A stretch of 64,000 bases of DNA from Amphibalanus amphitrite (lineage: Eukaryota > Arthropoda > Thecostraca > Balanomorpha > Balanidae): NCBI RefSeq assembly GCF_019059575.1, contig NW_024881532.1, forward strand, positions 124,001 through 188,000. The letters are read 5' to 3'. Positions 39,427-64,000 of this stretch are shown piece by piece; the stretch's first letter is position 1; each line of letters starts with the position of its first letter. The translations under genes and the position numbers were made by a program. The notes below the pieces were generated by a model. That model was given only the letters and a program-made list of their open reading frames with translations. It was not told where the DNA came from and ran no database searches.

Positions 39427-39599
39427 TTCCGAAGGACCTCAGGCTAAGGTGATCGTTAACTTGCTCTGGCAGTTGGCATTTCACGGGTTTGTTTTGAGAG
39501 CTTCTCCTGCGCCCACCCACCCACATCCCATCAGTTTTTTCCCAATCGTCCCAATCCCTGACTCTCTACTGTCCACAACCGCACCCCGTTTGCCCCATC

Positions 39600-41186
39600 A
39601 TGGGGAAGCGGCGCCGTCAGCGCGCGCTATCCGATTCCTATACCGACTCTGACTCCGACTCCCCTCCAGTTCCGGATCCTGCTCCTGACCCTACTCCTCC
39701 CTCTGCCATGGATACCGACTCCCGCCCGACCGTCAACCCTCCCTCCTCTACCCACCCTTCGACTGATCTACCCGGTACCGACCCTCGCTCGTCCACTGAC
39801 CACGCCCTGACCGCTGACCTGACCTCTGACCCCGCCCGGCACTCTGACCCTCGCTCGTCTACCGACCTCGCCCGGAGCCATGACCCTCGCCCGTCCACCG
39901 ACCACTCCCGGAGCTATGACCCGCGCACGAACTTGGCCAACGCACCTGCCTGTGCTTCTGTCGATCGCTCTCCGCTCGAACCGTACTTGGCTCTCGACGG
40001 CTCTTATCTGGTAGTGAAGGCTAGCGATAGTGACTTCTCTTTCCGGAAGATTAACGTTTTTTGGCCTCAGAAGCAGATCGCTGCTATCTGTGGGCAGCAT
40101 GGCTCAGACATCGAAGCTCCAGCTAACGGCACTCTCGTGATCAAAACTCACAATCGAAGGGACACCAAAGCACTCCTGAAGACAACCATGTTCTGTGGTC
40201 AGAAGGTGACAGTCTCTCTCCACCAGGCTCGCAACTCCTCTAAAGGCACGATTTTCGCCCCCGAACTGCGCCACATGTCCGAAGCTGAGATCTTGTCCGA
40301 GCTGAGAGGAGAGGGAGTGTCCCACATCAGACGACTGACGACCTTCCGTGATGGCCAGCGACGGGACACCAGCTTGCTGGTCCTCACTTTCGACACCACG
40401 ACCCTGCCCGAAAAGATAGCCATCGGCTGGCTCAAAAAAGATGTCCGGGTGTTCATCCCAAACCCACTCCGGTGCTTCAAGTGCCAACGATTTGGACATG
40501 GTAGCTCCACTTGTCGCCAGGCTGCTCGCTGTCAGAGATGTGGTGAGGCTCCTCATGAAAGCTCCGAATGTACTAAGCCGGTCTCTTGCTTGAGCTGTGG
40601 TAGCCCCGATCACTCTGTCTCGTCCTCACAGTGCCCCACGTGGAAGAAGGAAAAGCGTATCTGTGAGATCAAAGCCCAGTCCGGCTGCTCGTACCCCGAC
40701 GCTCGTCGCCGTGTGGAAGCCGAAACAGCCACTCCGGCTCCTGGTCGGTCTTATGCCAAGGCCGCCCGTACAGAGACCACCTCATGCAGTACTCAGACTG
40801 ACCCGATCTCAGCACTCCCCCCTCTTCAGTGTCTGAAACCCCTGACTGCCTCTACGACCACATCTACGAACACCAACGCCGCAACCGAGACCATTTTTGG
40901 TGACCCAATGCCTTCCTCCCCTCCCGACTCACAGCCCGAGGTCTCACAGGAGATCGGTCAGCACCCAAAGCCCTCCACCGGAGCCGGTCGCTCCACTGCA
41001 GGATGGATGAGGGTCCAGCGCACGAAGGGACCCCGCCCCCAGCCTCCATCAGAGGATAGACAGTCCTCAGGCACACGCACGTCACGTCCACCTATCCGAG
41101 TAGCAATGGGCCACAACCGTGCGTCTAGTTGGGCTTCGCCCCGTCGTGGTGTAACAAACAGGTACTCTCTCTTAGAACAACAATAA
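39600..41186 (+). CDS. LINE B ORF1, gag-like zinc-knuckle protein
   Basis: A 528-residue intact ORF closely similar to LINE A ORF1, with the same Asp/Ser/Thr repeats, three CCHC knuckles (CFKCQRFGHGSSTC, CQRCGEAPHESSEC, CLSCGSPDHSVSSSQC) and a Ser/Pro-rich C-terminus. It overlaps ORF2 by 58 nt. The overlap contains TTGGGCTTCGCCCCGTCGTG, identical in LINE A and able to form a small GGGC/GCCC hairpin. Confidence 0.92.
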   Translation: MGKRRRQRALSDSYTDSDSDSPPVPDPAPDPTPPSAMDTDSRPTVNPPSSTHPSTDLPGTDPRSSTDHALTADLTSDPARHSDPRSSTDLARSHDPRPSTDHSRSYDPRTNLANAPACASVDRSPLEPYLALDGSYLVVKASDSDFSFRKINVFWPQKQIAAICGQHGSDIEAPANGTLVIKTHNRRDTKALLKTTMFCGQKVTVSLHQARNSSKGTIFAPELRHMSEAEILSELRGEGVSHIRRLTTFRDGQRRDTSLLVLTFDTTTLPEKIAIGWLKKDVRVFIPNPLRCFKCQRFGHGSSTCRQAARCQRCGEAPHESSECTKPVSCLSCGSPDHSVSSSQCPTWKKEKRICEIKAQSGCSYPDARRRVEAETATPAPGRSYAKAARTETTSCSTQTDPISALPPLQCLKPLTASTTTSTNTNAATETIFGDPMPSSPPDSQPEVSQEIGQHPKPSTGAGRSTAGWMRVQRTKGPRPQPPSEDRQSSGTRTSRPPIRVAMGHNRASSWASPRRGVTNRYSLLEQQ

Positions 41187-44100: not shown

Positions 44101-44945
44101 ACTTCATCTACACAGATGGTTCGAAAAGTGGTCATCGCACGTCCAATGCAATTTTCTACAATGGTGATGAGCAAATAGTATCTCAAATCCGCTTACAAAA
44201 TGAAACAAGTATATTCACCGCAGAACAGCACGCGGTGCTTGAAGCACTGAAACTCACACAAAACAAACAATGGAACAAAGTAGTAATATGCACCGACTCC
44301 CGATCGGTTATTCAATCTTTACAAAACAAGCATCCGTCATCGCCATTGCACATACACATATATAACTTACATCAAACATTATCAACGAATGGTGTACAAA
44401 TCAAGTTTATTTGGATCCCTGGGCACAGCGGCATACATGGCAATGTCCAAGCCGACAAATACGCCAGAAATGCACTAGCACTTACACATATCACAAATAT
44501 TCCAATTGAATATCAAAGCATTAAAACAGTTCTTAGACAAAAAACACTTGGTCTTTGGAGAAAACAATGGTTGGAGGTAACTCGAGCAACGCAACTTCGT
44601 CGTATTAAAAAAGATATTACTGAATGGCAGAGTTCAAACAGAAACAATAGGGAAGAAGAAAAGGTATTAGCTCGGCTCCGCTTGGGACATGCTTGGTACA
44701 CACACAGTTACATTTACAAACAAGATGCTCAACCAACATGTAATGTATGCCGAACCCCGGTTACAGTCGATCACATAATCATCCAGTGTCCAAAATACGA
44801 AAGGGAAAGGCACCAACTCCGGAACCATTGCAACAGGCACGGTTTACCATTCACATTGGCTACAATTCTTGGAGACTCAGAAGACGGTTTGCAAGATCTT
44901 TTATTCCATTTTCTTCGAAACACAGATCTTTTCACAAGACTATAA
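41129..44945 (+). pseudogene. LINE B ORF2 polyprotein, one frameshift
   Basis: The first frame (to 43639) has the endonuclease (ILQWNCRGLVSNWAESK, ALQETWLLP, GDFNAHSPMWG, SDHYLI) and reverse transcriptase (GLPQGSCLSPILFNIMIND, LFADDCAIW). A one-base indel near 43577 moves the reading to the frame of 43593-44945, which has RNase H (YTDGSKSG, EQHAVLEAL, CTDSRSV, GNVQADKYA) and a terminal zinc motif (CNVCRTPVTVDHIIIQC). No ATG precedes the endonuclease core in the ORF2 frame, so translation probably depends on ORF1. Apart from the indel the copy looks well preserved. Confidence 0.9.
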
Positions 44946-45920: not shown

Positions 45921-46569
45921 TTCTTGGTTTCCGTGGTTTTGTTTCTCTTGAGCGGTCTTTGTTTGCTTTTGCTTTGCTTCTCACCGGATGTCTGCGTTTC
46001 GTTCGATCACAGCTTTCTGATTCCTTTCCCCTTTTTTCGTTGTTTTTTGCACCCGCAGGAACACAGCCGAGTTGGGCTAGTGTAAGGGGAGTGGCGTCCC
46101 CTCGGGTACCAGCCGGTTTTACTAGGCTAGGCGAGCCGACCCGTACCCCAGGACAACGGGATCCTGGAGGTTGAGCCCCCCACCGTGCGGAGCCAGTCGC
46201 GGTGGCTGGGCAACACGCCTCTTTGGCCCTGAGTTCTGTAAGGGCGGGACACTCAGTGGGGCGCCGCACTTGAGGAGCCATTCCCAGTCGTGATGCCGCC
46301 GGGGGTGGTGTTGGAGAGGTGTCGCCGGCGGGGTTCGGGCACTTGTGCTCGTCCTCCGTCGGTGGGACTGATCTGTCGCTGCCCCTGGCGGTGACTCGGC
46401 GAGGCGTCAAGGGAGGAGGCGGTATCCGACCGTGGGGGGTGGTGAGTCTCTCTCTCCCCCTCGGAAGGTGCCGCCAAGTCCCGTACAGTCAGCTCGGCCG
46501 TCCTAGGCCTTGTAGCGGCGCCGTTGCGGAGCGTCGGCGGCCGAGCTGGCGGAGACCAAGCACACTTCC

Positions 46570-48276
46570 ATGGATGACCGGACCAACCCCCCTTCCCCTC
46601 AATCCAACCCCTCGGCTTCGGCCGATTCTCGCCCGTTGGCCTCGGCCGGCGGGCGAACGTCACACGAGAAGGTTCCTCGAAACCCAAAGATCCTTATCCT
46701 AAGGAGCAGTGACAAACAGCTGGGTGCGCTGTCCCCCTTCCAACGGAAGGACGGCTGCGACCGCCTCGGCAAGATCCTCCGCTGCGATCGGATGCGCGAT
46801 GGGGCTTTGGAAGTCGAATTCGAGAAAAGTGAGGAGGCTGCAAAAGCCTTAAGCGCCACCCGATTTGTGTATACCGAGGGACGGGCCTCCGGCAGGAAGC
46901 TGGTCTCTGTCTCTCTCTCAGTTGAGCCGCACAGGTCAAAGAACTCGAGCAGAGGGGTCATCAACTGCTTTGACCTCAGAGACGTGAGCAATGACGACAT
47001 CGCAGACGGCCTCGCCGACTTTGGCGTCACAGCAGCACACCGCATCTTGGCGAGGAGAGGCACGGTCCCCACGAATAACATTATCTTAACCTTTGACTCC
47101 ACCGACATGCCGAGCGAGGTTCGCGTGGGGTACGTGAGGGTTCGTGTGCGACCTTACGTCCCGGCACCCATGCGTTGTTTCCGCTGTCAACGTTTTGGTC
47201 ATACGAAGGACAACTGCCGAGGCAAACCCGTGTGCTCCAAGTGTGCTTCCCAGGACCACACTGACGACACGTGCAGCTCGGAAACCCCTCGATGCGTCAA
47301 CTGCGGAGAGGGGCAGACACCGCACTCCGCGTATGACAGGTCCTGCCCTACATACGTCAAAGAGAAGGAGATAAACACCATCAAGGCTACCAGAAATCTG
47401 TCGTTTAAAGAGGCCCGGGAGGTGTATAACCAAACTCACCCGAAGACCTCGTATGCCCAAAAGGTGAGAGTGACAAACTCAACCGATGCCTCCCAGATGA
47501 GTGTTGCACAGCTTGTGCAGCTCCTCAAGCGATTCGGCCTCACTGTCGTAGCCACTGATGGCTCAGTGGACCCCCCGGCGCCTCGTGCGCCGCCGAGCGA
47601 CACGGAGCAGGCTGCTCAGGAGTCAGTGTGGGGTCCACCCAGTCCGGCTCCAGCCGCGAGTGGAGACGAGTGGACCGTCGTCCAGCGCCGACAGGGTGGT
47701 CGGCGCCCCCTGGCGCAGGGTAAGGCGCCACCCACCCCGCCCCGCCCCCGACCGTCTACGGCGGTGCAGGAGGCTCTGCGGCGGGGGGAGGAGGAGAGGA
47801 GGGCACGTGAGGCGAGGAGGGCTCGCCTCGTCCAGAAGGCCCTCGAGGCTAAAGAAGCCTCGTCTGCCGACTCCGCCTCCGGGAGTGCCAACGCGGCCGC
47901 CGCCGCTGACACCCCGGAGACACCTGAGGCGGGGACTCGGCCCATCATGGGTCCCCCGCCGCCTCCTCCACCTCCGCAGCGGCGGCCACCACCGCCGCTG
48001 CCAGAGACGCCTGTGTCGAGGACACAGGCCGCCGCCTCGACATCCCCGTCGGGGCGGCAACAGTCCTCCGCGGCTCCAGGGCGCCTCGCCAAGCGGCAGA
48101 CGCCCCCGAGCTGGTCGCCCTCGGAGGGTGACGCCCCTCGGGCGAAAAAGCCCCAGCAGGGCTCGAGCCACGCCCGATCTGCCTCCGCTGAAGGGAGGCT
48201 TCATCGAGAGGGCTCGGGGCACCCCCGCATCCGTTACGGGGGGAGCGCCTCCTCGGAGTTAGAGGACCTAGTCTAG
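46570..48276 (+). CDS. LINE C ORF1, zinc-knuckle protein
   Basis: A 568-residue intact ORF starting MDDRTNPPSPQSNP. Residues ~200-262 carry three knuckles (CFRCQRFGHTKDNC, CSKCASQDHTDDTC, CVNCGEGQTPHSAYDRSC). The C-terminal third is Ala/Pro/Arg/Glu-rich with a proline run, and is probably disordered. As in other LINE ORF1 proteins, it likely coats the RNA in the ribonucleoprotein. It ends 81 nt before the first ORF2 codon called here. Confidence 0.93.
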   Translation: MDDRTNPPSPQSNPSASADSRPLASAGGRTSHEKVPRNPKILILRSSDKQLGALSPFQRKDGCDRLGKILRCDRMRDGALEVEFEKSEEAAKALSATRFVYTEGRASGRKLVSVSLSVEPHRSKNSSRGVINCFDLRDVSNDDIADGLADFGVTAAHRILARRGTVPTNNIILTFDSTDMPSEVRVGYVRVRVRPYVPAPMRCFRCQRFGHTKDNCRGKPVCSKCASQDHTDDTCSSETPRCVNCGEGQTPHSAYDRSCPTYVKEKEINTIKATRNLSFKEAREVYNQTHPKTSYAQKVRVTNSTDASQMSVAQLVQLLKRFGLTVVATDGSVDPPAPRAPPSDTEQAAQESVWGPPSPAPAASGDEWTVVQRRQGGRRPLAQGKAPPTPPRPRPSTAVQEALRRGEEERRAREARRARLVQKALEAKEASSADSASGSANAAAAADTPETPEAGTRPIMGPPPPPPPPQRRPPPPLPETPVSRTQAAASTSPSGRQQSSAAPGRLAKRQTPPSWSPSEGDAPRAKKPQQGSSHARSASAEGRLHREGSGHPRIRYGGSASSELEDLV

Positions 48277-48357
48277 TCTTTCAGTCTAGTCATTTCCTCT
48301 TTTATCCTTTTATCTTTTTCGCGCTATTGCGCTTTTTTACCAGGTGCATTTCTCTCG

Positions 48358-51300
48358 GTGTTTTTTACCTTTTTTGTGGTCAGTCAGGTATCTGCGTGCG
48401 CCTTTGCCTCATGTTATACGCGCCCTTTTTGCGCCTTTTTAACCACGCCTTTTATTCTACAGTGGAACTGTAGAGGCCTCCGGGCCAACTACCAGGACCT
48501 ACAGTCTCTTATCCGTTGGCGCACACCCCTTGTTTTAGGTCTCCAGGAGACCAAGCTTGCGCCAAATGTCACCCTTGCCATCAAGGGCTACTCTGTTTTT
48601 AGGAGAGACCTGGACACCCCTACCATTGCCCATGGAGGTGTGCTTCTGGCGGTTCACCACAGCGTACCTGCGCGCCAGGTGCCGCTGCAGACTCCCCTGC
48701 AGGCGGTGGCCGCCAGAGTTGATTTCAACCACCGGGAACTGACTGTGTGCTCCTTATACCTTCCACCAGGTATAGCGCTCCCGGTGGTTGAGCTTCATCG
48801 ACTTGTCGATGAGCTTCCACCTCCGGTCCTGGTAGTCGGCGATTTTAACGCCCATAGCCTGGCGTGGGGATGCGACACGACTGGCACTCGTGGTCGACTT
48901 TTAGAATCTTTTATCCGCGATGAGGCGCTGTGTATTTTAAATACAGGACAGCGCACCCATTTTACGACACCCTCCGGTCAAACATCGGCTCTGGACCTGA
49001 GCTTAGTCAGTCCGCGGCTAGCTCAGCTTTTTACCTGGTCCGTCCATGACGACCCACTCGGGAGCGACCACTTCCCAGTGTGGCTGGAGCACCAGGAGTC
49101 CCCAGTGTCGGGCAACCGTCCACCTAGGTGGAATGTTCGGAAAGCCGACTGGGGCGAATTCCAGGCCGCTGTAGAGGCCTCTGTTTTAGCCAGAGCCGAC
49201 GCCTCTGTGATGTCTACAGAGGATTTTACATGTTTACTCAATGACTCCGCAAACGGGTGCATACCCAAGACGTCGAGTCAGCCTCGTCGTCCTCCGGTCC
49301 CGTGGTGGACCAAGGAATGCGGAGATGCGATTCGTGCCAGGAAACGCGCTTTTAGAAAGTTTGACCGGAGTAGTACTACTGAGAACCTCATCGCTTTTAA
49401 GAGAGCGCGGGCTTTTGCCCGACGCGTTTTAAAGGAGGCAAAGGCTGTTTCATGGCGCACTTATGTAAGTTCCTTAAACCGTTTTACTCCTACGACCCAA
49501 ATATGGGCACGCATGAAGCGTATTGAAGGCCGGTTCAGCTCTGTTCCGCTTCCGGTTTTAAGAGTGAACAACACGGACATATCTCACCCTTCAGACGTCG
49601 CAGAGACGATAGGTCGTGCACTCTATCAGCGCTGCCGAGGAGAGCCGTCCTCACGACCTGCACCAGCCGCCGTGGACTTCAGCACAGCTGAAAATTTGGT
49701 GTACAACGAGCCTTTCTCTATGGCTGAGCTCACGTCTGCCATCAGCTCGTTGCGCAGCGTCTCAGAAGGTCCGGATGCTGTCCACAACGACATGCTCCGT
49801 CATCTCCCAGCAGTTGCCCTCGAGGCGCTGCTAGCAACCTTCAATTCGCTTTGGGAGACTGGCACTTTCCCTGAGACCTGGCGGGAAGCCACTATCATTC
49901 CTATCTTGAAGGCTGGCAAGTCGGGACATGACCCTCTCCATTATCGGCCCATCTCTCTCACATCATCGCTATCAAAGCTGATGGAGAAGATGGTCAATGT
50001 GCGTTTTAGCTGGTTTCTGGAACACCATGGTGTTTTTACAAACGCCCAGTGCGGTTTTAGAAAGCACCGCAGCCCTGTTGACCACATTTTAGCCCTTGAC
50101 ACCGAGATACGCACCTGTTTTACTGAAAGGAAGCACCTTGGAGCACTGTTCTTTGATATTGAGGCGGCCTATGATACAGTCTTACGACACAGCATACTTT
50201 TCAAAGTATATAAGTACGGCATACGCGGCCGGATGGGCCTCTTTATCGAGAACTTTTTATCGGGTCGTCGGTTTAAAGTCCGAGTCGGTAACCAGTTGTC
50301 TAGCAGTTTTATCCAAGAGAATGGAGTCCCTCAGGGAGGGGTGCTTAGTGTGGCGTTATTCGCAGTGGCGATTAACGATATCGCCGATGATCTCCCGGTC
50401 TCTATCGGCAGATCGCTTTTTGTTGACGATTTTGCCATCTGGTTCGCCGCTTCCAGCGCTCGGCACATGGCCAGACAACTGCAGCTTGCAGTCAGACGGC
50501 TTGAGAGATGGAGCCGCGACAATGGTCTCCGTTTTTCAACGAGGAAGACTGTTGCCATGCATTTCTGTCGCCGCCGCTGCGCCGACCCTACATTGGGTAT
50601 CCGTCTGTACGGACAGACGATCCCCACGCAGCCGGTGGCGAAGTTTCTTGGTATGACGTTTGACGGACGTTTGACGTATAAAGAACATTTTAGAACGCTT
50701 CGGGAACGATGTTTTAAATCCCTGAACGTTTTAAAGTGTGTTGCCCGCACATCATACGGTGCGGATCGCAAAACTCTGCTCCTCTTGTACCGGTCGATCA
50801 TCCGATCGAAGCTGGACTACGCGTGTTTTGTTTATGATTCTGCAAGTGAGTCCAGCAAGAAGTCCCTGGACGCAGTACATCACGCTGCGCTCCGCGTTGC
50901 CACCGGGGCTTTCCGCACTTCTCCAAAGAGTAGTCTTCTGGCTGAAACGAATGAGCCACCTCTAGCTCTTCGTCGCCAGATGCTGGGGATGCGTTACACT
51001 TTGAAACTTCGCCAATACCCAACGCATCCGACGTACCCGTACGTCTTTTCACGTCACGCTACTCGATCTGACGGGAGGGTACGACCGTCGTTTGGAGAAC
51101 GCATGGGAGGTCTTTTTTCAGCTGCTAACATATCCTTGCGTGGCGTTCGGCGTACCTGGGACACGCCCCCTCCACCCTGGAAAAACGCCAATCCGCAAGT
51201 GGACCTCTCACTATCGACTGTTAAGAAGGACAACTTGTTGCCTGCTGAGGCGCGAGCCAGAGCCTTAGAGCACATTGCCGTTTATGATGGTTTTATCACG

Positions 51301-52128
51301 GTTTATACAGACGGCTCGAAGACAACCGAGGGAGCGGGCTGCTCTTTTGTCGCTGGTCGTGACACCCGCTCGTTTTCTCTGCCACCTTCCGCCTCGGTGT
51401 TTTCTTCAGAGCTAGTCGCTATAGAGAAGGCTTTGTGTTTCATCGAGGTTTCTGGCAGTCCCTTTTACTTGATTTTATCTGATTCTCTTAGCAGCTTATT
51501 GGCCTTACGTACTTTTAACTCAGTTGACCCCATCGTGCGGGACATTTTAACTCGGCTTACGTCGGTGGAGCAATCTGGAAAATCAGTCCGTTTCTGCTGG
51601 ATTCCCAGTCACGTCGGCATTGAAGGCAATGAGCTTGCTGATGCTGCTGCCAGACGCGCCGCCGCAGCACCCTGCACTCGGCGCTTGCCTCTGCCTGCCC
51701 GGGATTTTTATCCGCTGGTGCGACCCTTCATGCTTTCAAAGTGGCAGGCAGAGTGGGATTTGTGTGTAAGGAACAAGCTGAGAGAGTTGAAACCAACTCT
51801 AGAGCCTTGGCAGTCTTGCCTGCAAGGCAATCGTTTCCAGGAAGTGGTCCTCTGCAGACTCCGTATTGGTCACACATACGCGACGCACAGCTATCTCCTT
51901 TCAGGAGGTGAGCAGCCTTTGTGCAACAGGTGTTCCGTGCCTCTAACCGTCGCTCACGTTCTTTTATCTTGCCCACTCTTTGAACGGAACCGGACACGCT
52001 ACCTGGGCTGTATTGCTCCTGGTACCACTATCCGCCACCTACTGGGTGACGAGTCACCCTGGGTTTTATCCGGCAATATTTTCTCCTTTATCCGTTCGGT
52101 CAACTTCCAGGTGATTTACTCAACCTGA
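48358..52128 (+). CDS. LINE C ORF2: endonuclease, reverse transcriptase, RNase H
   Basis: An uninterrupted frame of 1,256 codons. The N-terminal APE-like endonuclease has FILQWNCRGLRANYQ, GLQETKL, GDFNAHSLAWG and SDHFPVWL. The central reverse transcriptase has ENGVPQGGVLSVALFAVAIN and LFVDDFAIW, with Val in place of the more usual Ala before DD. RNase H has YTDGSK, SSELVAIEKAL, LSDSLSSL and GNELADAAARRAA, so its four acidic catalytic positions appear present. The C-terminal zinc motif is CNRCSVPLTVAHVLLSC. The frame opens at a GTG; no ATG precedes the endonuclease, so the true initiation mode is unclear. Confidence 0.93.
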   Translation: MFFTFFVVSQVSACAFASCYTRPFCAFLTTPFILQWNCRGLRANYQDLQSLIRWRTPLVLGLQETKLAPNVTLAIKGYSVFRRDLDTPTIAHGGVLLAVHHSVPARQVPLQTPLQAVAARVDFNHRELTVCSLYLPPGIALPVVELHRLVDELPPPVLVVGDFNAHSLAWGCDTTGTRGRLLESFIRDEALCILNTGQRTHFTTPSGQTSALDLSLVSPRLAQLFTWSVHDDPLGSDHFPVWLEHQESPVSGNRPPRWNVRKADWGEFQAAVEASVLARADASVMSTEDFTCLLNDSANGCIPKTSSQPRRPPVPWWTKECGDAIRARKRAFRKFDRSSTTENLIAFKRARAFARRVLKEAKAVSWRTYVSSLNRFTPTTQIWARMKRIEGRFSSVPLPVLRVNNTDISHPSDVAETIGRALYQRCRGEPSSRPAPAAVDFSTAENLVYNEPFSMAELTSAISSLRSVSEGPDAVHNDMLRHLPAVALEALLATFNSLWETGTFPETWREATIIPILKAGKSGHDPLHYRPISLTSSLSKLMEKMVNVRFSWFLEHHGVFTNAQCGFRKHRSPVDHILALDTEIRTCFTERKHLGALFFDIEAAYDTVLRHSILFKVYKYGIRGRMGLFIENFLSGRRFKVRVGNQLSSSFIQENGVPQGGVLSVALFAVAINDIADDLPVSIGRSLFVDDFAIWFAASSARHMARQLQLAVRRLERWSRDNGLRFSTRKTVAMHFCRRRCADPTLGIRLYGQTIPTQPVAKFLGMTFDGRLTYKEHFRTLRERCFKSLNVLKCVARTSYGADRKTLLLLYRSIIRSKLDYACFVYDSASESSKKSLDAVHHAALRVATGAFRTSPKSSLLAETNEPPLALRRQMLGMRYTLKLRQYPTHPTYPYVFSRHATRSDGRVRPSFGERMGGLFSAANISLRGVRRTWDTPPPPWKNANPQVDLSLSTVKKDNLLPAEARARALEHIAVYDGFITVYTDGSKTTEGAGCSFVAGRDTRSFSLPPSASVFSSELVAIEKALCFIEVSGSPFYLILSDSLSSLLALRTFNSVDPIVRDILTRLTSVEQSGKSVRFCWIPSHVGIEGNELADAAARRAAAAPCTRRLPLPARDFYPLVRPFMLSKWQAEWDLCVRNKLRELKPTLEPWQSCLQGNRFQEVVLCRLRIGHTYATHSYLLSGGEQPLCNRCSVPLTVAHVLLSCPLFERNRTRYLGCIAPGTTIRHLLGDESPWVLSGNIFSFIRSVNFQVIYST

Positions 52129-52438
52129 CCCAATTCCTCTCTAGTCTACTTGTCTAGTCAGTTGATTGTTACGACGCTCTTGCGTTGTTCTATCTTACCT
52201 TGCCGTTTTTATCAAGTCTTTTACTTTCTTAGCCTTGGTATATAGAAGGTCTCTTGTTTTGAAACACTTGTTTTATTAGAGTGACGTTATGGGCGCAAAA
52301 TGACCTTCGCAGTCGGCGCGCCCTAAAGCCCCAATAAACAACAACAACTCAGCGACTCCCCTCAAAACACCCCACTCGGGTGTTATTTTTGACATGACCG
52401 TCAATACCCCGTACAGGGTGTCATTTTTTCTTTCAGTG

Positions 52439-54700
52439 CAGTTGTCGGTATTTCGCCGGTGTGCGCGTGTTAAACACTAAATAGCTACTCAGAATACAGC
52501 CACAGCGTCTTAAAAACAGCGACAGAAAAACAGTGACTCATGCTCAAAACAGCGATCGCATGTTGAACGACCTCTAAAACAAACAGCGACTCACGCTTGA
52601 GCGATTACCTATCATATAAAACGGCAATCCGTAATAGCGCGACTTGAGAAGAACATCCACTTTTCTGTAATGGGGGTTGGAAAACGAAAATTGGCGATTC
52701 CTTGCGAAGTATATTTTTGTGTGATAAATGCACTCGTTTCGCGGAACAAGACGTCGTATGACACCCTCCGATATCCCGGCGCGATCGGGGCAAACTTGAC
52801 AGTTAATTTGTGCTGAAAAATCAACGATATATCAACGAAAAATTATCATCATCGAAACGAATGAGCGACTGAGTTGAAACGAACCTGTAAATACGAGTAT
52901 GTTACGAAATAAAGGTAGGTACTTCGATATCGACTCCGACTATGTTGTAGTAAATAGTAATCTTGATCGACTCCTTGCTGTGATTTTTTAGCAAATAATA
53001 ATGCAAAACGAGTGCATTTCACATAAAAATGTATCTACCTACTTCGCAAGAAATCGTCAACTTTTGCTTTTCCAATCACGATTAGCCTAGAATAGTCGCT
53101 GTTTCTCTGAAGTCGCTCTATTATGAATCGCCGTTTCAAACCAAGACCGTACCCATACTTATAATAAGTTTCAAACAATCGCTCAAACATGGGAATCGCT
53201 GCAGCGACTGTTTTGAAGGTCGCTCGCGGCCGATGGGATAGGGTGTGATGTCTCGTTTCATCGAAATTCCTCTCATCAAGTCGCATCGAATGAACTATAA
53301 GTTAACCTTGAAAGGTCAACTTGCAAAGTTGACCTCAGGTCAAGGTTATGACTTGACCCGAAGGGCTATGCTGCATATCAGCCGATCCGTAGGGGAAGTT
53401 GGGGCAATGCCGGAGTTGGGGCAAAGCCGAAATTCGAGATATTTCGAAAACCGTAAGACATGGATGCCACCTGTCAGTGATGCTCTGAAGCTTAAGTGAC
53501 TATACAATTATCGCATGTTTGTTACGAGTCGTCATTCGGAATACTTCGACTGTGAGGGCGCCAAGAGCGTTTTCAAGGTACGTTTCCCTTGTACTACATG
53601 CGCCTTTGAAGCTGCATTTCTTACTCATTATGCTACCGTTTGTCTGGCCAATTCGGTCAAGTAATCTTTAGCATGTCTTTGCATAAGTGTGCTGCCTATT
53701 TGAAATTTATACAGCACGTTGAAAAGTTATGGGCCTGCAAATGAAAGTATGGGAGGCTGGGGTAATGCCGAAAACGTGCGATTACGCACGTGTTAAAAGC
53801 ACGCTACGTGGACTTTACTGCTGTAGAATAGCAACGCGTATTTTTAGTCACACAAATTACACTTTCAACCGACACAACGGCCTGTTACCTATAAGGAATG
53901 ATTTACCCGGCATGTTCTTATTATATCACACAATTATAAAGTTACCAGTGTGCACCGCGTCCTCAAGCTCTTAAAACGCGTGTCAGCTTTGATCAATTCT
54001 GGATAAAGTTTGAGATAAAATGGCAAAACATCAATGTCGGCATTCCCCGTAGATCATTTCTCCCATTTTCGGCTTTCCCCGCAGTCCGGGGCAACGCCGA
54101 AAAAGTCACTTCTTTGATATTTTTAGTTTGTGCGCTTAACGGTATGCGAATTCATCAAATGCGCCTGGTATGTTTGAAAGGCAAAAGACTGGCCTCTCGA
54201 ATGACGCCAACAAGAATAGCTTATGTTGTCTACCTTGCGTGCTACGGGCGTCAGAAAAAAAGTCTTCGGCGTTCCCCCAACTCCCCTATAGTCGAGCGGA
54301 ACAGTGAACACAACCAAGGCATTTTCATCGCTCTAGCGTGCCTCTATCAAAAGTTATTCGCGAAAAACTGTTAGATACCATTCGTGACCTGAAATGACCT
54401 CAAGAGCATATACAGGGGTCACAGGTACCATTTTCATGTTCACTGTGTCAACGTTACTTGTACTTCAGTGTTTCAAAGTGTTTATAACGGCAGCACGGCT
54501 TCCGTCCTAAAGAGGCGCCTTTCAATTTTCTCCCGTTGACTTAGGTAGGTATGGTCCTAATGGGGAGGTCGCAAAATTGACCTGACCTTAGGTTACCGAT
54601 ATCAAAATTGCGAGATAATATTTTGTACATACTATTGCTCTCATCAATCGCTGAAAGCTTCAAAGCAATCGGTCACTCGGTGTAGCTATGGCAGACATAA
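52439..54700. other. Intergenic, nothing recognised
   Basis: No gene could be supported. At 53390-54100 short words of the type TTGGGGCAATGCCG/GGGCAACGCCG recur irregularly. TGACCT-type words appear at 53300-53350 and 54550-54600. Confidence 0.5.
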
Positions 54701-55230
54701 GCCGTTTTCACGACGGGCTAGGTATCCGGCGCGTGCACCTAATTTGACCAAATCTGCACCTAATCTCTTTTACAGCAAATATTTTTTTGATGAATTTATT
54801 TCATTGTTTTAATTGATAATGATGATGCTATCTGATAATATGACAAAGCAGGCAGATAAGCAATTAGTACAACCCTAGCTGATAGTTACTAAGAGATAGT
54901 AGCCGTTTTCACGACGGCCGTCTGGTACACATTTGGTGCATTTGGTCAAATTAGGCTCAGTGTGTCTCTTAGTAGCTGTCAGCTAGGGTTGCACTAATTG
55001 CTTAACTATAAGCCTGCTTTGTCATATTATCAGAGAGCATCATCGATTAATAAATTCATAAAATGAAGATATTTGCTATAAAAGAGATTAGGTGCAGATC
55101 TGGTCAAATAAGGTGCACTCGCCGGATAGCCCGTCGTGGAAACGGCTACACTGAACCTAATTTGACCAAATCTGCCCCTTATCTGCAGATGTGAACTAAA
55201 TGTGTACCAGATGGCCGTCGTGAAAACGGC
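54701..55230. mobile_element. MITE (TAGCCGTTTTCACGACGG family), split by a copy of itself
   Basis: Outer copy with termini GCCGTTTTCACGACGG and CCGTCGTGAAAACGGC. Its parts are 54701-54899 and 55147-55230. An inverted copy of the same family lies between them. TA lies next to the termini of related copies, as expected for Tc1/mariner-type target duplications. Confidence 0.8.
54902..55146. mobile_element. Inverted MITE copy nested in the preceding copy
   Basis: A ~245-bp copy in opposite orientation, flanked by TA. It is inserted where the intact copy at 55776-56042 reads AGAGATACACTAAACC. Confidence 0.8.
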
Positions 55231-55775
55231 TATTGAAACCTTTTATGAGGCGAGGTCACTTTAAAGTTTAAGTGACCTAGTCACCTGACCTTGAACGACC
55301 TTGATCTGAAATTTTTGAACATGTGTAGAATTGATGTATGATAATGTGTGCCAAAAACGGCGGCGCCGGGGGGTGTTCACCCCCCAGCAGGGCGCGAGTT
55401 AATCTTCTCAAAAGGAAAAGCAACGGCTCTGGTGAGTGGTGTTAGCTACGCAACAAAATGTAATGATCTCGTGTGGTACGCCGCAGTTACTATATTCTGC
55501 CAGGCTTTGCAACTGTCAGAACAGGTGAAATTCATATGATCCGACGGGCCGTGCCCACCCTTATCGTCATCATGTTGCGACTGTCCGGATCGGGTATCAG
55601 CTTGCAGTGAGCGGCTAAAGCCCTCACCATTCACCGTCCATCAATGTCCCGGTGCGGCCCCCAATCCGCACTCAGAGTAGACTTTCACTGCAGCTCTGTG
55701 CTTTATACGGACTCACATGGCAGATGTGCCTATTTGGTGTTATTCTCGGCGGGCTGGATTACGTATATGATAATA

Positions 55776-56042
55776 GCCGTTTTCACGACGGACTATCCGG
55801 CGAGTGCACCTAATTTGACCAAATCTGCACCTAATCTCTTTTACGGCAAATATCTTCATATCATGAATTGCTTTGTTTTGATCGATGATACTCTGATTAT
55901 ATGACAAAGCAGGCATAAGCAATTAGCGCAACCCTAACTGATAGCTACTAAGAGATACACTAAACCTAATGTGACCAGATCTGCACCTAATCTGCACCAA
56001 ATGTGCACCAAATGTGTACCAGATGGCCATCGTGAAAACGGC
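55776..56042. mobile_element. Intact MITE copy (TAGCCGTTTTCACGACGG family)
   Basis: A 267-bp copy flanked by TA on each side (55774-55775 and 56043-56044), with inverted termini of ~17 bp and interior CACCTAATTTGACCAAATCTGC shared with the copies at 54701-55230. No coding content. Confidence 0.85.
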
Positions 56043-56407
56043 TAAAATGAACCGTCACTAAATCATGCCTAAGATTAGGAACATGTTCACGATAGAACAT
56101 CTCAAAGCAGGGAAATTATAAATAAAAGTGGCTCTCATCCATACTCCTTACATTGTTCTGAAGTATGTACATTTTTAATAACTTTTAGTACATATTACTC
56201 TTTACAGTCCCTTTACCTTTGCATCGATTGTACATGCCTACATTCCCTTTAGCTTGTGTCAGGGTTTTAATGTTAGTGTGTACCTAGGTAAACGTTGTGT
56301 AGGTATGATTCGAGTACGAATGTTGCTGTGCAATGTGCATTTATGTACCTACTCATTTTAAATTATGACTTCATCAATCAATGGGCCATCCCGTCGGCGC
56401 TTCTGAG

Positions 56408-56462
56408 AAATAAATGAATAAATGAATACATAAATGAATAAATAAATAAATAAATAAATGAA

Positions 56463-56509
<47 letters not shown>

Positions 56510-56511
56510 AG
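56408..56511 (+). repeat. (AAAT)n microsatellite
   Basis: About 25 units of AAAT with a few AATG variants near the left end. The long minus-strand frame of repeated Ile/Tyr/Leu/Phe residues here is an artefact. Confidence 0.95.
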
Positions 56512-56754
56512 GTGCATAGCCTATGACGGTTTTCTACCCGATGCCACCCATATGCCACCACCCATCAGCCATCACCAAGCAACTACATGTAGATAAAGGT
56601 ACCCATACATATGGGAAAAGAATTGATTAAGTAGGTACGCTACGCAAATAAAAACGTTTTGAACCAGTAAAACGCCTTTTGGGGGAAGAACGAGCGAGCG
56701 AGATAGTGAGCCCTGCACGAGCGGAAGGGCGAGAGGGTACTTCCAACGGGCTTG

Positions 56755-57110
56755 TGCAAAGCACCCTTCTAACCGGTCGCTAGCGGTGTGCCAAATTTGA
56801 ACGCAATCGGCCCAGCCGTTCCTGAGATCTGGAAGCGGCATTCTGCACGTGTGCACGTGCAAACGGGGTCCAAAATGACTTTTGCACGGCACCCAACTAA
56901 CCGGTCCCCAACCGTGTACCAAAGTTGAGCGCAATCAGCCCAGCCGTTCTCGAGATCTGGAAACGCCCCCTGCACGTGCGCACGTGCCGTAGCACCCCAA
57001 CCTTAACACATGCAGATGAATTATCTGATGGAAATCTACCTAACTGTGTACCGAGTTTCAATTCAATCGGCCCAACCGTTGTGCCGGTATTGAGGTTGCA
57101 ATTTTGGGGG
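56755..57110 (+). repeat. Diverged ~125-bp tandem repeat, about three units
   Basis: Three successive units share CAATCGGCCCAGCCGTTC-type words and AACCGGTC...GTGTACCAAA words. The third unit is the most diverged. It is bounded by GAGCGAGCGAG at ~56690 and CTCGCTCGCTCG at ~57345-57362, which may be terminal repeats of an element. No gene is supported. Confidence 0.6.
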
Positions 57111-57517
57111 TTCTTAAAAAATGTCCAACTTTACCACGCGCCAGTCGCCACGTGCGGTGGTTGGCAAGAACGCATGGTGGCCATCACACCACAGAACTTT
57201 TACGTCCAAGTGACATTCAGTAAAGAAGACCGCTTGTCAATCGGATGTCCCGTTCCTAAGATATTAGCTTTTGAAGAGCGTCCCGACGGCCGGCCGGCCG
57301 CTCATCTCAGGATTTTCCCTTAATTCAGTATGAACTCGCTCGCTCGCTGCGCTCGCTCGCTCGTAATAATGTGTACCGTGGTCCTACAAAAGGAAGGCCT
57401 AGATAAGTTAAAGCTTTTTCTTAGTTCTGACTTCTGAGGCCAGTTTACCAACAGAAAAATAGCCGCCTGCCGGAATTTTTTGCCTGAAGACCGCACCGCT
57501 TCACATAGTGCGGATTC

Positions 57518-58381
57518 CCAGGCTAGTTGGTGCGAATCAGTGCAGACTTGTCACCACGACCGGTGCAGATTACCGATTGATTTATGACGTTGGTTGACAT
57601 GAGGGTGGTTGCGTTGCCTTATACGTTGTTTGAATAAACATCTTTGTGTTTAATTACTCGTCTGTGTGTTTTATTATAAGATGTAGGCATAAGAAGCAAG
57701 GATGGTTGCATATTTAAACGCATACACGTAAAATGCGGCTTTAATTTCACACGCCTTTTATTAGTGAAAAGTGGCCGGATGACTAACTTTTTTTTTAAAT
57801 TTAGTCCGAACCTTTTGATGGGAAGGATTCACAAGGACAGAGCCACCGCTAAGCGAAGCTTGTTGCGATGACCCTGCCCTCTACCCTCCGATCGCGCAAT
57901 TCCGATTCTATGGCAGAATTTAGAGTCCAAAGTTTAACGTGCGCACAAAGCCGCGCACGGCCGGTCCCCTCACTGACTTCGCCTGGCTACGGCCTGCCAC
58001 CAACCGCAACCATACCTGTCAGGAGGCCCATAAATGTCGAGCGCCCGTCGCGCTTCGAATTCCCGGACTGTCATAACCGGGAACGCGTGCTCTCACCACG
58101 CGGAGTCCAACGCTCTAACCAACTGAGCTACGGGACCGGCAACTTTGACTTTGATGTCATTTCACACGCCAAAAGCTAGTAATCGAACAAGTTTACAAAC
58201 CTTATCTTAGTAGGCTTACAAAATGTCTGAAACAACCTAGTGTGTTTCATAACACGCCAGTTCCATTTTACGTGTGTCTGGAAACACACTTGCACACATA
58301 TTGTGTGTGAAGTCTACTCGCATTTTGTTAGTGAAAAGTGGCCGGATGACTAGGAAGTTAGTAAACATTTTTTACAGTGTA
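57518..58381. mobile_element. Degraded relative of the 30090-32005 element
   Basis: 57535-57660 closely matches 31165-31310 (GAATCAGTGCAGA, CACCACGACCGGTGCAGATT, AATAAACATCTTTGTGTTTA). The right end GTAAACATTTTTTACAGTG matches the right terminus of that element. The left terminus is missing. The tRNA-like sequence lies inside. Confidence 0.7.
58050..58138 (-). ncRNA. tRNA-derived SINE head or tRNA pseudogene
   Basis: On the minus strand GGTCCCGTAGCTCAGTTGGTTAGAGCGTTGG looks like a tRNA acceptor and D arm with a perfect A box (TAGCTCAGTTGG, 58119-58130). A weak B-box-like ATTCGAAGC follows ~65 bases later. The anticodon arm does not fold properly, so this is not a working tRNA. Confidence 0.5.
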
Positions 58382-58524
58382 CACATGATTCGTAAGCGCG
58401 ATGGGCACGTAAGCGGATAGGGCTTTAACGTTTACCGTACCGTATGTGTTAAGCGGTGTTTACTAAAAATAAATAAAAAATCCGGCAGGCGGCTATTTTT
58501 CTGTTGGTAAAACTGGCCTCTGAA

Positions 58525-60828
58525 CATAAGCGTATGGACCACTACTTGAACTTCATAAGCATTTGTCTATAAGTTAGGTTTTTTGAGTGAAGAGAGGTCT
58601 CATATGTTCGGGTCACGGGTGTGCATTATTTTGCTCATACTGTTTCTTTTAATGTACTCGTCCACAAAAGGATGGGCATTAGGAACCGTAAAAACACAGG
58701 CATATACATACGTATAACAAAAGTAGGTATATTTACTGAGTACATGTTTCTGTGTAATGGATAGCAGGCAGATACACCGAGTCGTACCAAAACTCCTCTG
58801 TCGTGGGTATTACATCTTGGAGAGCGAAGTTCATTGCAGCATGGCGACACAGGTGCAAACTACACATAACTTGGCTTACATATAGCTAGGCATAGGTACT
58901 CCCACATGATGTGTTTGGTATACAAATACACAAATACTAGTATCTCTAATGCTAAAATATCGTTAGCATCGTTAGCATGTCTTACCTACTGCAAAACGAG
59001 ACATGTGCTATCCCTACCTATGCATAAAAAACTATAACTTTTTTATCATCTGAAGTAGTCGATCGTCATCAGAAACGCACAATTTAGTGTAGCATGCCTT
59101 TGATAAAATATTGTGTCATTTGTTTGCCCAAAACTGTCGGATCAAAATGAGCGCTGAAAATCACGTGAGCAGCACATAGTCCACTTTTAAGGAACACTAT
59201 TTGCCTTCGACGTTTGAACGTAAAAGCATAGATAACCGTCTCGGAGAGTCTCACTTGTTCATTAACTTAAGCGGAAAATAAACAACTTACCAACCTTGAA
59301 CCTACATAGAAATGAAGAAACACTTTGTCGCCCGATTTCTATACGTAATTTAATTGAATGTTTTAGTCGGGCAACTAAACACGACAGGGGTTACTGATCT
59401 ATCTGAAATACTATATGTACGATGTCCCAATTTTGAAGTCGGTCGTAATCAGGAGTAAAAGGTTTCATGGGGAAGGTGAGTCATTCTTTTTCAAAAAGCT
59501 ACCGACATAGATTACTGAATCTATGCCACCGATTATTGAAGCCCGTTGTTTTGCCATTTTAAACTTAGAAGAAAAGGACACGCATGTTCTTGAAGAAACG
59601 CCTTTGGAAGTTTTTGATTGATTTTTTACATCAAAGACATAGAGTAAGATACCCAAACGCTAATTGCAAGGCATACACTACTGAATAGGTAGGTATTCAT
59701 CTAACAATATTTCTAAATGTTTGTAAAATAATTGTTTTTATTGATGTTCATCTTATGCATTATACATTGATACAAAGATTAACAAAATAACCAATTAACG
59801 CGAACAACAAATATAGCGGATATAAAGTATTGAGATATGTTCATCCAACAGGTGGATGAAAAGGCGTCAAAGTCCAAGGGACTAGCGAGTTTGTTTGGGA
59901 TGGACTGGATGGTGCGGCATCTGCAGCTTCGACTAAAGCGAAGGTTTCCAACTTGGTACATCTGCCGCAGTGTAGACCTTGCAGCATGCAGATCCCGAGC
60001 CTGAGTGACGCCATTTTGTGATCCTGAAACGGTGAGAACAAGATTAGGTATATGGTGATTATATATTAAACTGCGAGTAGGTGGAACAAATCTTTTAAAC
60101 GTCGAGCCGATAGACGAGACGTTTAAAATATTTTTCTACCTAACGAGTGGTTTAATAATTTTATACCGTACCGCCGATATGTTTCGGGCGCTTAAATGTA
60201 AAAAAAATATAAAAATACGACATATTTCAGACTATACGAAATGCCTAATAGACGTTTAACAGTTTGTTAATCGTCAAGACGTTTCACAAATTAGTTGAAC
60301 GACATCTGATAATTTTCTCTCGTATCACGGAAGCAATTGTAAACACTGTCTGCGGTGCCGGATAACAATATTGAAACTGCTCTCTCATATCGGCCGCATT
60401 GAAAGTGGCTATAACGCCCTTTTATTATGTGATTAATGTTGACCGAATAAAAGAGTTGCACTGGACTATAAAGTAACGAAAACAGACTCGGCGAAGTCAG
60501 TATTACGTCTATATAATACATTTATCAAAGGAGTTAACTTCATTAAAGAAGCTACAGAAAAATTTATAAGATGACAAAATAAAGCAATGTTAAGGGACCT
60601 GACCAAAAGAACTTTCCCGATGATAAACTTCATATACGAGTATACTTATGCCTACTGCTATAGCTTCAATTCTCCCAATGAGGGACAAAGAATGGGCTGC
60701 TTAAAACTTCACTGAATATCTTTTTAGCAAAGAGAGCAAGCAACTCGTGTAAAAAAAACTTGCCGTTATTTGCTCATGACAATAGCGTCCCGAACAGCAG
60801 AGGGCGCTCTGTTGAACGGACGTACCTA
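58525..60828. other. Intergenic, nothing recognised
   Basis: AT-rich sequence with frequent TAGGTAGGTA-type words and only short reading frames. A short inverted word (AAACGTC ... GACGTTT) occurs at about 60097-60125. I see no gene. The 3' untranslated region of the gene ending at 60829 should lie just below that position. Confidence 0.5.
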
Positions 60829-62945
60829 TCAGTCGAAGCCCAGGGAGTCCTGCAGTTCCGAGAGCAGCTCGTCGAGCGAGACGCTGCCGGAGACGGTCGT
60901 CTCCCGCGGCGAGCCTCCCCCAGTAGAGGTCGAGATGGTCTCCAGCCATTCGATCACGGGAGACGACGAGCTGGTGACCGACGCACTCTGTGAGCCTCCG
61001 GACACGTCCAGGTCATCCAACAAATCCGAGAGAGAATCAGAGGAGAGTGATTTTGTAGAGGATCGGGAATTTTCAAAGTCTTTAAGCCAGGTGCTGAGAG
61101 GAGATGAAGATGAGTATGAAGTTATTGGTGAGGATCTGGGAGTGTAAAGATCCGTCAGAAGGGAAGCAAGTGAAGTGGGTAGAGAGGAAGAGGTGCTGAT
61201 GGAAACACCAGGCCTGTTCAGGCTGGACAGCAGCGTGTTTATGACATCACCGGAAGGAGAGGATGATCTTGATGAGGATCGAGATGCCATCCTGGACAGC
61301 AGGTTCATGATGATCGAGGAGAAGCGTCCCGGCGAGTGTTTTGACGTCTGCAACCTGTTCAGCTTGGAGATCCACCTGATGAGAGCTCGGAGGGCGGCGC
61401 GGGTCGACATCGGCGCAGGGATGTCGGTCACTGTGCTGTCAGAGGACTGCAGGGGCGCCAAGGGACGCTCTCCGCTCCTGGCCAGCGCACGGATAAGGGC
61501 GGCGATGTCAAGAGGGCGCCTCGAGTCGTCGTCCGACGCTGTGCCGTCCTCGTCCGTCTCTGAGTTCTGCGGATCTCTCAGGAGCCGGCGGATGGCCGAA
61601 ATCAGCTCGGATACCGTCCGGTCAGACGAACTGCCGGACTGAGTTCCTCCTGTCGTCGCAACCACGATCTCCGCCTCTGAGGACTGCCTCCCCAGCAGCT
61701 GTTTGATGATCTCTCCGATACGAGACTCTGTCGTGTCGCCGATCGACACTGAATACACGTCTCCAGAGCCCGATGCTGAAGTTGTTGTTTCTGGTTTCCG
61801 CATGACATCCAGCACCTTGCGAATGAGCGACAGGAGCGAGCCTGTGGATGACACGTTATCGATTGTCTGCGCTGACTCCTGTACAGGATACGTAGCCTCG
61901 TTGCCCGTCAGCGAACCCAGACCGTTCCCGGAGAGCCAGCTGAGGAACGGGGAGGTCTCGGTAGACCTCGCAGACTCCCCCGCCTTCACCGAGGACCGGC
62001 CGCTGACGCCTTTCAGCAGTCTGTCTAGCAGTGACGTGACTGGGGCAGACGACGCGTCTCTGGCGGTGGATATTGTGTCGTCTTCGTATTTGTACGTCGC
62101 TATCGGAACACGCCGAGACGCTGGGGGAAGGGACGACGTGTCACTTAGTAGCATTAACATTTCTGGCATAGGTATGCATGTATCCTCTTATATCTTTTAA
62201 TTTATCTTAAACGCACTTTTCACGGCCTTTATATTTGTATATATACGTAGGTACAGTGCCTAATTTAACATAGCCTCGCTACAGTAATTTTTCCTTCCAC
62301 CTCACCACGTGTTTAAAAAAGAATTGCTCACGTTGTCAAGAGGTAATACGTCATAAGCGTATTTACCTTTAGAATTTATTTATTTTTATTATACGTCTTT
62401 AAGCTGAACAAGCATGGGAGTTAACTTGAAAATAACTCGTACTTTGCAATACACTTACAGTGGAGCGTTTTGCCAAACGCACTGTAGTCCTGTGAGTCGA
62501 TAGCTTCTTTAGTCCTCTTGTATAATGATTTGCCCAGCAAGGAGCCTTCTACAGTCGCAGACATCAGAGACAGCAGTGCCAGCATGGCAGCCAGACGGCC
62601 AAACGGAACCTCAGTACGACTGAAACGAAATCGTTATCACAGTCAAGGGAAACTTTGAATTATGCGCGTTTTGCAATGCATTTATATCGTTATGGCGCGG
62701 TGCATATACAATATACATTCACATTCGGCATTCCACATCACAGTGTCTCACAAATGTACAAATTATTACAACAGAATTTGCTCGATATAATTATCAATTG
62801 ATGAACGACGAATAAAGCAGCAGAGCAGGGATGATCACAGAAGCCCATATGATATCGCCCCAAAGTTGGCATATGGTGCATTGCTCAACACCAGCCTTCC
62901 CAAACCTGAGCTGCCGGCCCCTCTCACCACAGCTACTCACCCCAT
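60829..62945 (-). CDS. Secreted Ser/Thr-rich protein with ~14 amphipathic segments, unknown function
   Basis: Three exons: 62941-62945 (ATG plus two bases, donor GTGAGT), 62459-62619 and 60829-62120. Phases are exact, and the exon 3 acceptor has a CTACTAAG branch site and pyrimidine tract. The protein is 485 residues. Residues 1-27 are a signal peptide ending SATVEG; a possible dibasic site YKR is at 35-37. The mature part is rich in Ser/Thr and has leucine-rich amphipathic segments starting near 84, 113, 150, 188, 225, 257, 298, 322, 347, 373, 396, 416, 442 and 468, e.g. SLLDRLLKG, GEIIKQLLGR, ALRALIRWISKLNR, LDELLSELQDSLGFD. Segments 3-8 are mainly basic and 11-14 acidic. There is no cysteine in the mature chain. 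I do not recognise the family; an extracellular assembling or adhesive protein is conceivable but unproven. Confidence 0.85.
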
Positions 62946-63023
62946 GTCGGAGGTGGGAGGCGACCTTGCAGCTCTGTGACGGTGCCGGTGGCTCACTAGT
63001 ACGGTGGTGTGGTGACGGGCCGA

Positions 63024-63030
63024 CTATATA
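63024..63030 (-). promoter_or_regulatory. TATA box of the secreted-protein gene
   Basis: TATATAG lies ~80 bp upstream of the start codon at 62945. Transcription would start about 30 bases downstream, near 62995, giving a ~50-base leader. The region up to ~63150 is GC-rich. Confidence 0.7.
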
Positions 63031-63787
63031 CCAGCTGAAGGGCCGTCTCAGCACGGCCGCGGCAGTACCGTGACCCGGGCACGGACGGCGCACCGCACCG
63101 GCCGGACCACACGTGCGGGGGTCCGCCGAGCACGCACCCCGTCAGCATGGGGAGGAAATTGGGCCGCACTGCATGCAGTGCAGAGCAAAGTTACTTAGTT
63201 GCATATTAAAGATGCTTGTGCTTTTTAATAACTGAGGCTGCTTTGGATATGGACATAGGTACCTATAAGCTATGCGTATGTTCACGAATTTGTATGTTGA
63301 ATGTTCACGTTAAGATTTGATTGGCTGCTTCGCAATAGGCACGCAAATCAGACGACCCAATATAACATAAAATAGGTAAGGTACACGACGCTGGACTAAC
63401 TACATAGCTGGTACTATACTCCATGCTTCGATTTCTAGTCTTACACATGATTCGTGCGGTGCCGCCGTTTTGCTAACGCAATGCATCAGCCGAAGGTAAT
63501 GGATGCCATTTGAGTACCTATACCGCTTTTGAGTTTTGCGCCAAGGACAAATAAGTAATACAGTGTTTGCATAGGAACAGTTTGCAACTCTGTCCAATGG
63601 AGATAGCGCAGAGACCCGCAGCATCACAGCATCTCTCTATTCAATTAAGCTCTGCTGCGTCTTATTTAGTAGGTACAGACCATGCTCGCGTTGTCTTTTG
63701 CACTGTTCATTTTCACACAATGTGTTTGCCACGCTACTCTGAAAGGAGCGGTACAATATTGTTGGCTAATAGGTAAGTGAATAAGGA
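63031..63787. other. Upstream flank, no gene seen
   Basis: Contains the GC-rich upstream region (to ~63150) of the secreted-protein gene, then AT-rich sequence. No further coding sequence is supported. Confidence 0.5.
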
Positions 63788-64000
63788 CTTTACTCCACAA
63801 GAAATCGTTCGGGTCGGAGCTTTCGAATTGTATTACAAAACTTCGTCAGCGAGTCGTAATCGGGTTCGAGGGGTATCGGTCGCAAAATTCGGTCGCAGAA
63901 TTTTGCGACCGATACCCCTCGAACCCGATTACGACTCGCTGACGAAGTTTTGTAATACAATTCGAAAGCTCCGACCCGAACGATTTCTTGTGGAGTAAAG
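63788..64000. repeat. Perfect inverted repeat, 103-bp arms
   Basis: 63788-63890 and 63898-64000 are exact reverse complements with a 7-bp centre. The palindrome reaches the last base, so the arms may extend further. It may be a foldback element or an assembly artefact. Frames across it are mirror artefacts. Confidence 0.97.

Follow-up and report, generated by a model that had tools for sequence, protein, structure and literature searches.

Organization of the locus

The window, the whole 64,000-nucleotide stretch of barnacle DNA that was analysed, has a GC content near 50% and contains several recognizable features. Huntingtin exons, identified with the Htt bridge and N-HEAT models, are spread over about 17 kb of the minus strand (approximately 5387-22725). 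A ubiquitin-protease (UCH) catalytic exon (4445-5209) shares the minus strand with the huntingtin bridge exons (5387-6992) and is located just past them. This exon has a His box at 4657, a motif scan of the window found no Cys box, and it may represent a nested gene, the next gene or a fragment. Three LINE-like elements lie on the plus strand (28112-37649, 39498-44945 and 46516-52128), each with a gag-like ORF, recognized by eye, and after it ORFs for endonuclease, reverse transcriptase and RNase H whose state varies; the two gag-like ORFs tested gave no Pfam domain. TTAGG is the arthropod telomere-type repeat, and an interstitial array of about 29 such repeats is found at 25482-25627 (20 overlapping 15-mer matches). 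The window ends in a near-perfect palindrome (63767-64000, continuing to approximately 64021) with 103-nt arms, 100% complementary inside the window, and a 7-nt loop. Since its total span with the neighbouring stretch is approximately 255 bp, it is a small fold-back element and not a large inverted duplication.

We concentrated on a gene on the minus strand, which is real and intact and is probably a single-locus gene. Its three exons join to encode a protein of 485 residues. The features of the locus are as follows.

63025..63030, minus strand: TATA box (TATATA), starting at 63030, 85 nt upstream of the ATG
62945-62941, minus strand: coding part of exon 1 (ATGGG), with the phase-2 donor GGG|GTGAGT; identical in the second copy of the gene
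62619-62459, minus strand: exon 2, encoding the signal-peptide-like N-terminus and the segment to residue 55; second copy 96.9% identical
62120-60829, minus strand: exon 3, including the stop codon, encoding residues 56-485 and all 14 amphipathic units; second copy 96.1% identical, with one in-frame 3-nt deletion
60832..62043, minus strand: span of the 14 amphipathic units (residues 82-485)
60421..60426, minus strand: candidate poly(A) signal AATAAA, 402 nt after the stop; distant and weak as evidence

The coding part of exon 1 supplies codon 1 in full and the first two positions of codon 2. Both introns are GT-AG, in phases 2 and 1 when exon 3 starts at 62120, where the acceptor reads CCCCCAG|CG. 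A nearer acceptor, CCAG approximately 40 nt earlier, was ruled out since it yields a TAA codon, hence the exon-3 acceptor must be at 62120. The six-frame list contains an ATG ORF of 446 codons at 62169-60829, and the stop-free run of 452 codons exceeds anything in 500 dinucleotide shuffles (mean 158, maximum 419). We rejected a gene in another frame, as the five other frames contain 2-21 stops and are without the helix periodicity described below. The GC3 of the gene is 0.68 (0.78 for the huntingtin/USP exons of the window) and CTG accounts for 51% of its leucine codons (59% in the same exons), while its introns and 3' flank have a GC content of 0.35-0.43. Thus, the complete gene model read from the sequence in an earlier note holds, with its TATA box, signal-peptide-like exon and GT-AG junctions in phase, as does its description of a Cys-free, Ser-rich chain. 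The 485 residues include no cysteine, 21.2% Ser, 12.0% Leu, 8.9% Thr, 6.8% Gly and 6.4% Ala, with a pI of 5.3, and Ser, Thr, Gly and Ala together form 43% of the mature chain.

Residues 1 to approximately 27 resemble a signal peptide, with the h-region LAAMLALLSLMSATV and a likely cut, judged by eye, at VEG|SL. The N-terminus has the signal-peptide order of basic, hydrophobic and small residues, with a hydropathy peak of 1.63 starting at residue 11. Two replacements between the gene copies, S19P and M21L, leave this predicted signal region hydrophobic. We found no transmembrane-like stretch in the mature chain, in which the 19-residue hydropathy reaches a maximum of 0.84.

Fourteen amphipathic units in Ser/Thr-rich linkers

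Exon 3 encodes 14 short amphipathic segments, chosen by eye, of 11-19 residues each, which recur at a spacing of 20-40 residues (mean 29.8). The linkers between them are composed of 27% Ser and 13% Thr. We took the cores of the units to start at residues 83, 114, 151, 190, 225, 261, 299, 322, 349, 373, 397, 419, 444 and 471. The 8-residue core pattern, PHI-x-x-PHI-[L/I]-x-x-PHI, is complete in 13 of the 14 units, the exception being unit 2 (start 114 or 111). In the best registers, which were picked to fit, positions 3, 4 and 7 are hydrophobic in 14/14 units and position 0 in 13/14.

A scan of the chain with the core pattern, compared with shuffled sequences, provides an unbiased test that is independent of the hand-picked unit registers. 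The scan returned 17 overlapping matches, located in 13/14 units, against a mean of 1.0 and a maximum of 7 in 5000 global shuffles and a maximum of 4 in 5000 local shuffles. Strict core matches numbered 10 (shuffle maximum 4). The earlier note had counted roughly 14 recurring leucine-rich amphipathic segments, and these results bear out both their number and their pattern. Hydrophobic pairs are enriched at the helical spacings i+3 (44, against 26.8 in shuffles) and i+4 (43, against 26.4), with 0/1000 shuffles as high, and are depleted relative to shuffles at i+2 and i+5. The resulting (i+3,i+4)/(i+2,i+5) ratio is 3.0, compared to 0.93-1.35 for eight other ORFs of the window and 0.75-1.27 for the five other frames of the gene DNA. 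Hydrophobic residues form 12 clusters (7.3 in shuffles, 3/1000 with as many), 10 of which have a helical hydrophobic moment of 0.42-0.85; local hydrophobic density has an unremarkable variance (172/1000 shuffles as high).

Across the units, the hydrophobic register is maintained while the polar faces vary, and repeats in the exon-3 DNA are limited to three families, short (12-22 nt) and weak. We therefore rejected a recent tandem repeat as the origin of the units. The earlier note had also called for helix prediction. AlphaFold2, run on the exon-3 protein as a single sequence, placed 14 helices, each overlapping one unit. We took only the helix positions from this model, the best of five, because its confidence is very low (mean pLDDT 37). 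The chain has the regularly repeated motifs in linkers that characterize sticker-and-spacer proteins; that the motifs interact with each other is what we infer.

Charge distribution along the chain

The six segments starting at residues 148-321 carry net charges of +1 to +5, and the segments at 396, 416, 442 and 469 carry 0, -5, -2 and -5, so the shift in segment charge seen in the earlier note is confirmed. Its wording of opposite-charge halves was overstated. Residues 396-485 do form an acidic tail, with a net charge of -11 (31/5000 shuffles as high relative to the rest of the chain, with the boundary taken from that note). However, the whole stretch 150-335 nets just +2, because its linkers are acidic, chiefly around residues 240-256, and charge is not significantly segregated along the chain as a whole (601/5000 shuffles as high). 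The accurate description is an acidic tail with basic middle helices.

A second copy of the gene and selective constraint

We searched the genome to which the window belongs (807,550,619 bases, 2644 contigs) and found one further copy of the gene, on contig C237. Positions 648001-667999 of this contig are collinear with window positions 52438-63733, with large indels that include one of approximately 2.6 kb in intron 2. In the second copy, which encodes 484 residues, the exons, splice signals, stop and frame are all retained, apart from the 3-nt deletion listed above. The three-exon model, for which the earlier note regarded lack of transcript support as fatal, is in this way supported by a second genomic copy and not by transcripts. 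Of the 155 bases of core promoter and 5'UTR (62946-63100), 150 can be aligned between the copies, free of gaps and at 94% identity, while the introns are 80-84% identical with many gaps. Identity is 78% within the aligning part of the nearest 3' flank, 91% in the farther stretch 58500-60000 and 88-94% in other flanking pieces.

The second copy is best read as the other haplotype, although it may be a recent segmental duplication. PMC8270832 describes the coding sequence of B. improvisus as extremely diverse and notes that some contigs of the A. amphitrite assembly may be allelic. Between the presumed haplotypes, the coding exons are 3-4% and the introns approximately 16-20% diverged, and these differences, together with the multi-kilobase indel, amount to extreme heterozygosity within one assembly.

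An exon-3 protein search of the genome (E up to 1) matched the locus itself, the allelic-looking copy and a chance-like sequence at E 0.11 with 3 stops, and none of the 33 candidates scored was a paralogue. A close paralogue family was rejected on these grounds; remote paralogues may escape this search, since only the best candidates were scored.

A dN/dS comparison, another check suggested by the earlier note, could be made between these two copies in one genome. The overall value is 0.19 (34 synonymous and 18 nonsynonymous changes, Nei-Gojobori), a clear sign of purifying selection on the gene as judged from the two sequences. The helix boundaries from AlphaFold2 were fixed before the second copy was seen. 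Within the helices there are 2 nonsynonymous and 13 synonymous changes (dN/dS 0.054), and in the mature chain outside them 14 and 20 (dN/dS 0.245). Helices make up 40% of the mature chain and hold 2/15 of its replacements (P 0.024), and none of the 15 falls on the 56 core positions 0/3/4/7 (P 0.14). Fisher tests of nonsynonymous against synonymous changes gave P 0.053 for the helices and 0.086 for the 8-residue cores. These values are suggestive of stronger constraint on the helices than on the linkers, with a modest contrast (P 0.02-0.05).

Search for relatives

The earlier note could name no family for this protein and held that a clear match to a known one with another role would count against its reading; no recognised family and no clear match emerged from the Pfam, PDB, NCBIfam, viral, phage and prokaryote collections. 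No Pfam-A family scored above its curated cut-off, the best being DUF1117 (E 0.52, 11.3 bits against a cut-off of 25), and phmmer at E up to 10 found no match among 177635 distinct PDB sequences. Pattern matches in IMG/VR (12) and in prokaryote genomes (45) included none confirmed as a relative, and NCBIfam and the phage genomes yielded no relative. By design, these four collections leave out animal proteins, so that their negatives say little about arthropod relatives. Six peptides of the protein do not occur in the main text of the literature searched. We regard the orphan status of the protein, on these searches, as provisional.

A profile of the units matched 11 PDB sequences (E 0.0023-8, with E up to 10 accepted), of which 3 are MetN and 8, going by their names, are helical proteins designed de novo. 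Matches to designed proteins are as expected of generic self-packing helices.

Proposed role and alternatives

From the architecture and constraint observed above we infer a function. The architecture is in keeping with a secreted protein that self-associates, and we put at about even the chance that this is a secreted, largely disordered sticker-and-spacer protein with a structural or adhesive role, its short helices folding as they pair with those of other chains. With a length of two to three helical turns, the 8-residue core would have little stability on its own; it would therefore fold by packing its hydrophobic stripe against the cores of other chains. With fourteen stickers per chain, this packing could build a multivalent extracellular network in the form of a condensate, gel or fibre. 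A pairing preference of the basic units 3-8 for the acidic units 12-14 could help to set the register, while the hydrated Ser/Thr spacers, possibly glycosylated or phosphorylated, would keep the chain soluble until release. The most likely setting would be a glandular adhesive, cement or cuticle-like secretion.

Multivalent helix pairing is the best-supported mechanism and binding to lipids or surfaces is its main rival, although a fairly unlikely one. In the latter case, the helices would lie on lipid droplets, membranes, air/water interfaces or solid surfaces, in the manner of exchangeable apolipoproteins or natural surfactants. Amphipathic helices fit lipid binding equally well, the hydrophobic moments given above are compatible with it, and the basic faces of the middle units could bind acidic lipids. 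However, the apolipoprotein plan is one of continuous 11/22-mers, whereas the units here have a core of just 8 residues and are separated by long Ser/Thr-rich linkers. Furthermore, no Pfam family scored above cut-off, and the acidic C-terminal units would not be typical of lipid binders. We consider it unlikely that the protein belongs to a cuticle or shell matrix, where calcium or chitin would be bound through the phosphorylatable serines and the acidic tail, leaving the helices only to hold the matrix together. The net charge of the tail and 11 S-x-[D/E] sites agree with such a role, but Pfam detected no chitin-binding or other domain, and acidity is limited to the tail and some linkers, chiefly around 240-256.

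An intracellular or nuclear location, in which the hydrophobic N-terminus would not function as a signal peptide and the LxxLL-like cores would bind partners, seems quite unlikely. The core does contain PHI-x-x-PHI-PHI, which resembles coactivator boxes, and the predicted signal region is of moderate hydrophobicity and holds 2 of the 18 residue differences between the copies; against this, the N-terminus retains the order of a signal peptide and its hydrophobicity survives both of those differences. Highly improbable, in our assessment, is a precursor from which many antimicrobial or signalling peptides are cut. Repeated amphipathic segments of 11-19 residues, several of them cationic, recall such a chain, but it has no R-x-[K/R]-R site, its single R-x-x-R lies within a helix, its dibasic pairs number only six, with two or three located within helices and not between them, and the late units are acidic.

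Returning to helix pairing between secreted chains, a bolder form of this proposal, which is tentative and probably goes too far, is that the protein represents a new class of extracellular network protein. Cohesion would come from approximately 14 minimal, Cys-free α-helical stickers, whose basic middle units can pair with the acidic C-terminal set, instead of from the β/amyloid or disulfide assembly reported for known barnacle cement proteins. If helix pairing between secreted chains is the right reading, the protein would be a natural case of extracellular, multivalent self-assembly based on helices. Its 8-residue unit would be simple enough for peptide tests and for copying in materials, and in the barnacle it would add a helix-array component to the adhesive. 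The allele comparison also suggests where in an orphan sequence of this kind the important part lies.

Comparison with known adhesive and helical systems

We compared the protein to barnacle cement proteins. In PMC8371367 and PMC8561864, the leucine-rich cement proteins (LrCP; CP52/CP100) are similar in being secreted, orphan and Leu-/Ser-biased, with CP52k internally repetitive. M. volcano CP52k has four repeats of 113-129 residues with one Cys each (PMC7230167), and PMC8561864 gives CP52k a pI of 10.5-11.5 in rock-attaching species and 4.2-9.2 in a sponge-dwelling species. The protein described here has no repeats of approximately 120 residues with one Cys each, as defined for CP52k (PMC7230167); it has no Cys, a pI of 5.3 and 8-residue cores every 20-40 residues.

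One Mrcp52k peptide, R4-4, from Table 1 of PMC9097139, aligns with unit 4 (27/20000 shuffles as good; best of 11 tried). With the hydrophobic pattern kept in the shuffles, 128/20000 were as good, which, after 11 trials, does not show kinship. Eight of the 11 were printed Mrcp52k peptides; besides R4-4, R4-3 gave 15/300, R2-3 gave 17/300 and the remaining five were unremarkable. We treat the sequence alignment of R4-4 with unit 4 as a lead, not a test.

CP19, CP43 and CP57, as described in PMC5099703, also alternate Ser/Thr-rich low-complexity stretches with charged blocks. They combine silk-like blocks with a high content of Gly, Ala, Ser and Thr, whereas the blocks here are Leu-rich helices; the abundance of all four residues that defines the barnacle GSrCP (CP19/CP43) is not found here, with Gly and Ala at the 6.8% and 6.4% given above. 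A CP19-family protein (member 4) in Table 1 of PMC8371367 has the same length of 485 residues, which we think is chance because the composition is unlike the CP19-family description and no paralogue was detected. The bulk cement proteins of barnacles are grouped into classes that include a leucine-rich and a glycine-rich one. In its composition and predicted helices, the protein fits no barnacle bulk-cement class cleanly, being made of Leu-rich helices and Ser/Thr linkers with no Cys and an acidic pI. Barnacle cement itself is reported to be about half β-sheet with minor helix (PMC12472103). Megabalanus rosa lcp3_36k, from the cyprid cement gland, is likewise an orphan and is a secretory-gland protein with 27% helix by CD (PMC8639568), so helix would not be an entirely new feature of barnacle glue. 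Unlike our protein, lcp3_36k is described in the same paper as 380 residues long, Arg-rich and hydrophobic, with a pI of 11.9 and three Cys.

Beyond barnacles, de novo designed helical bundles and cages are the best-scoring PDB group for the unit profile (8/11, by name). They are not homologous to the barnacle protein, their best E is 0.0023, and no designed chain has a single stretch that passes alone. Dehydrins are intracellular stress proteins of plants. They resemble the barnacle protein in having repeated amphipathic helix-forming segments within a disordered chain (PMC8100072).
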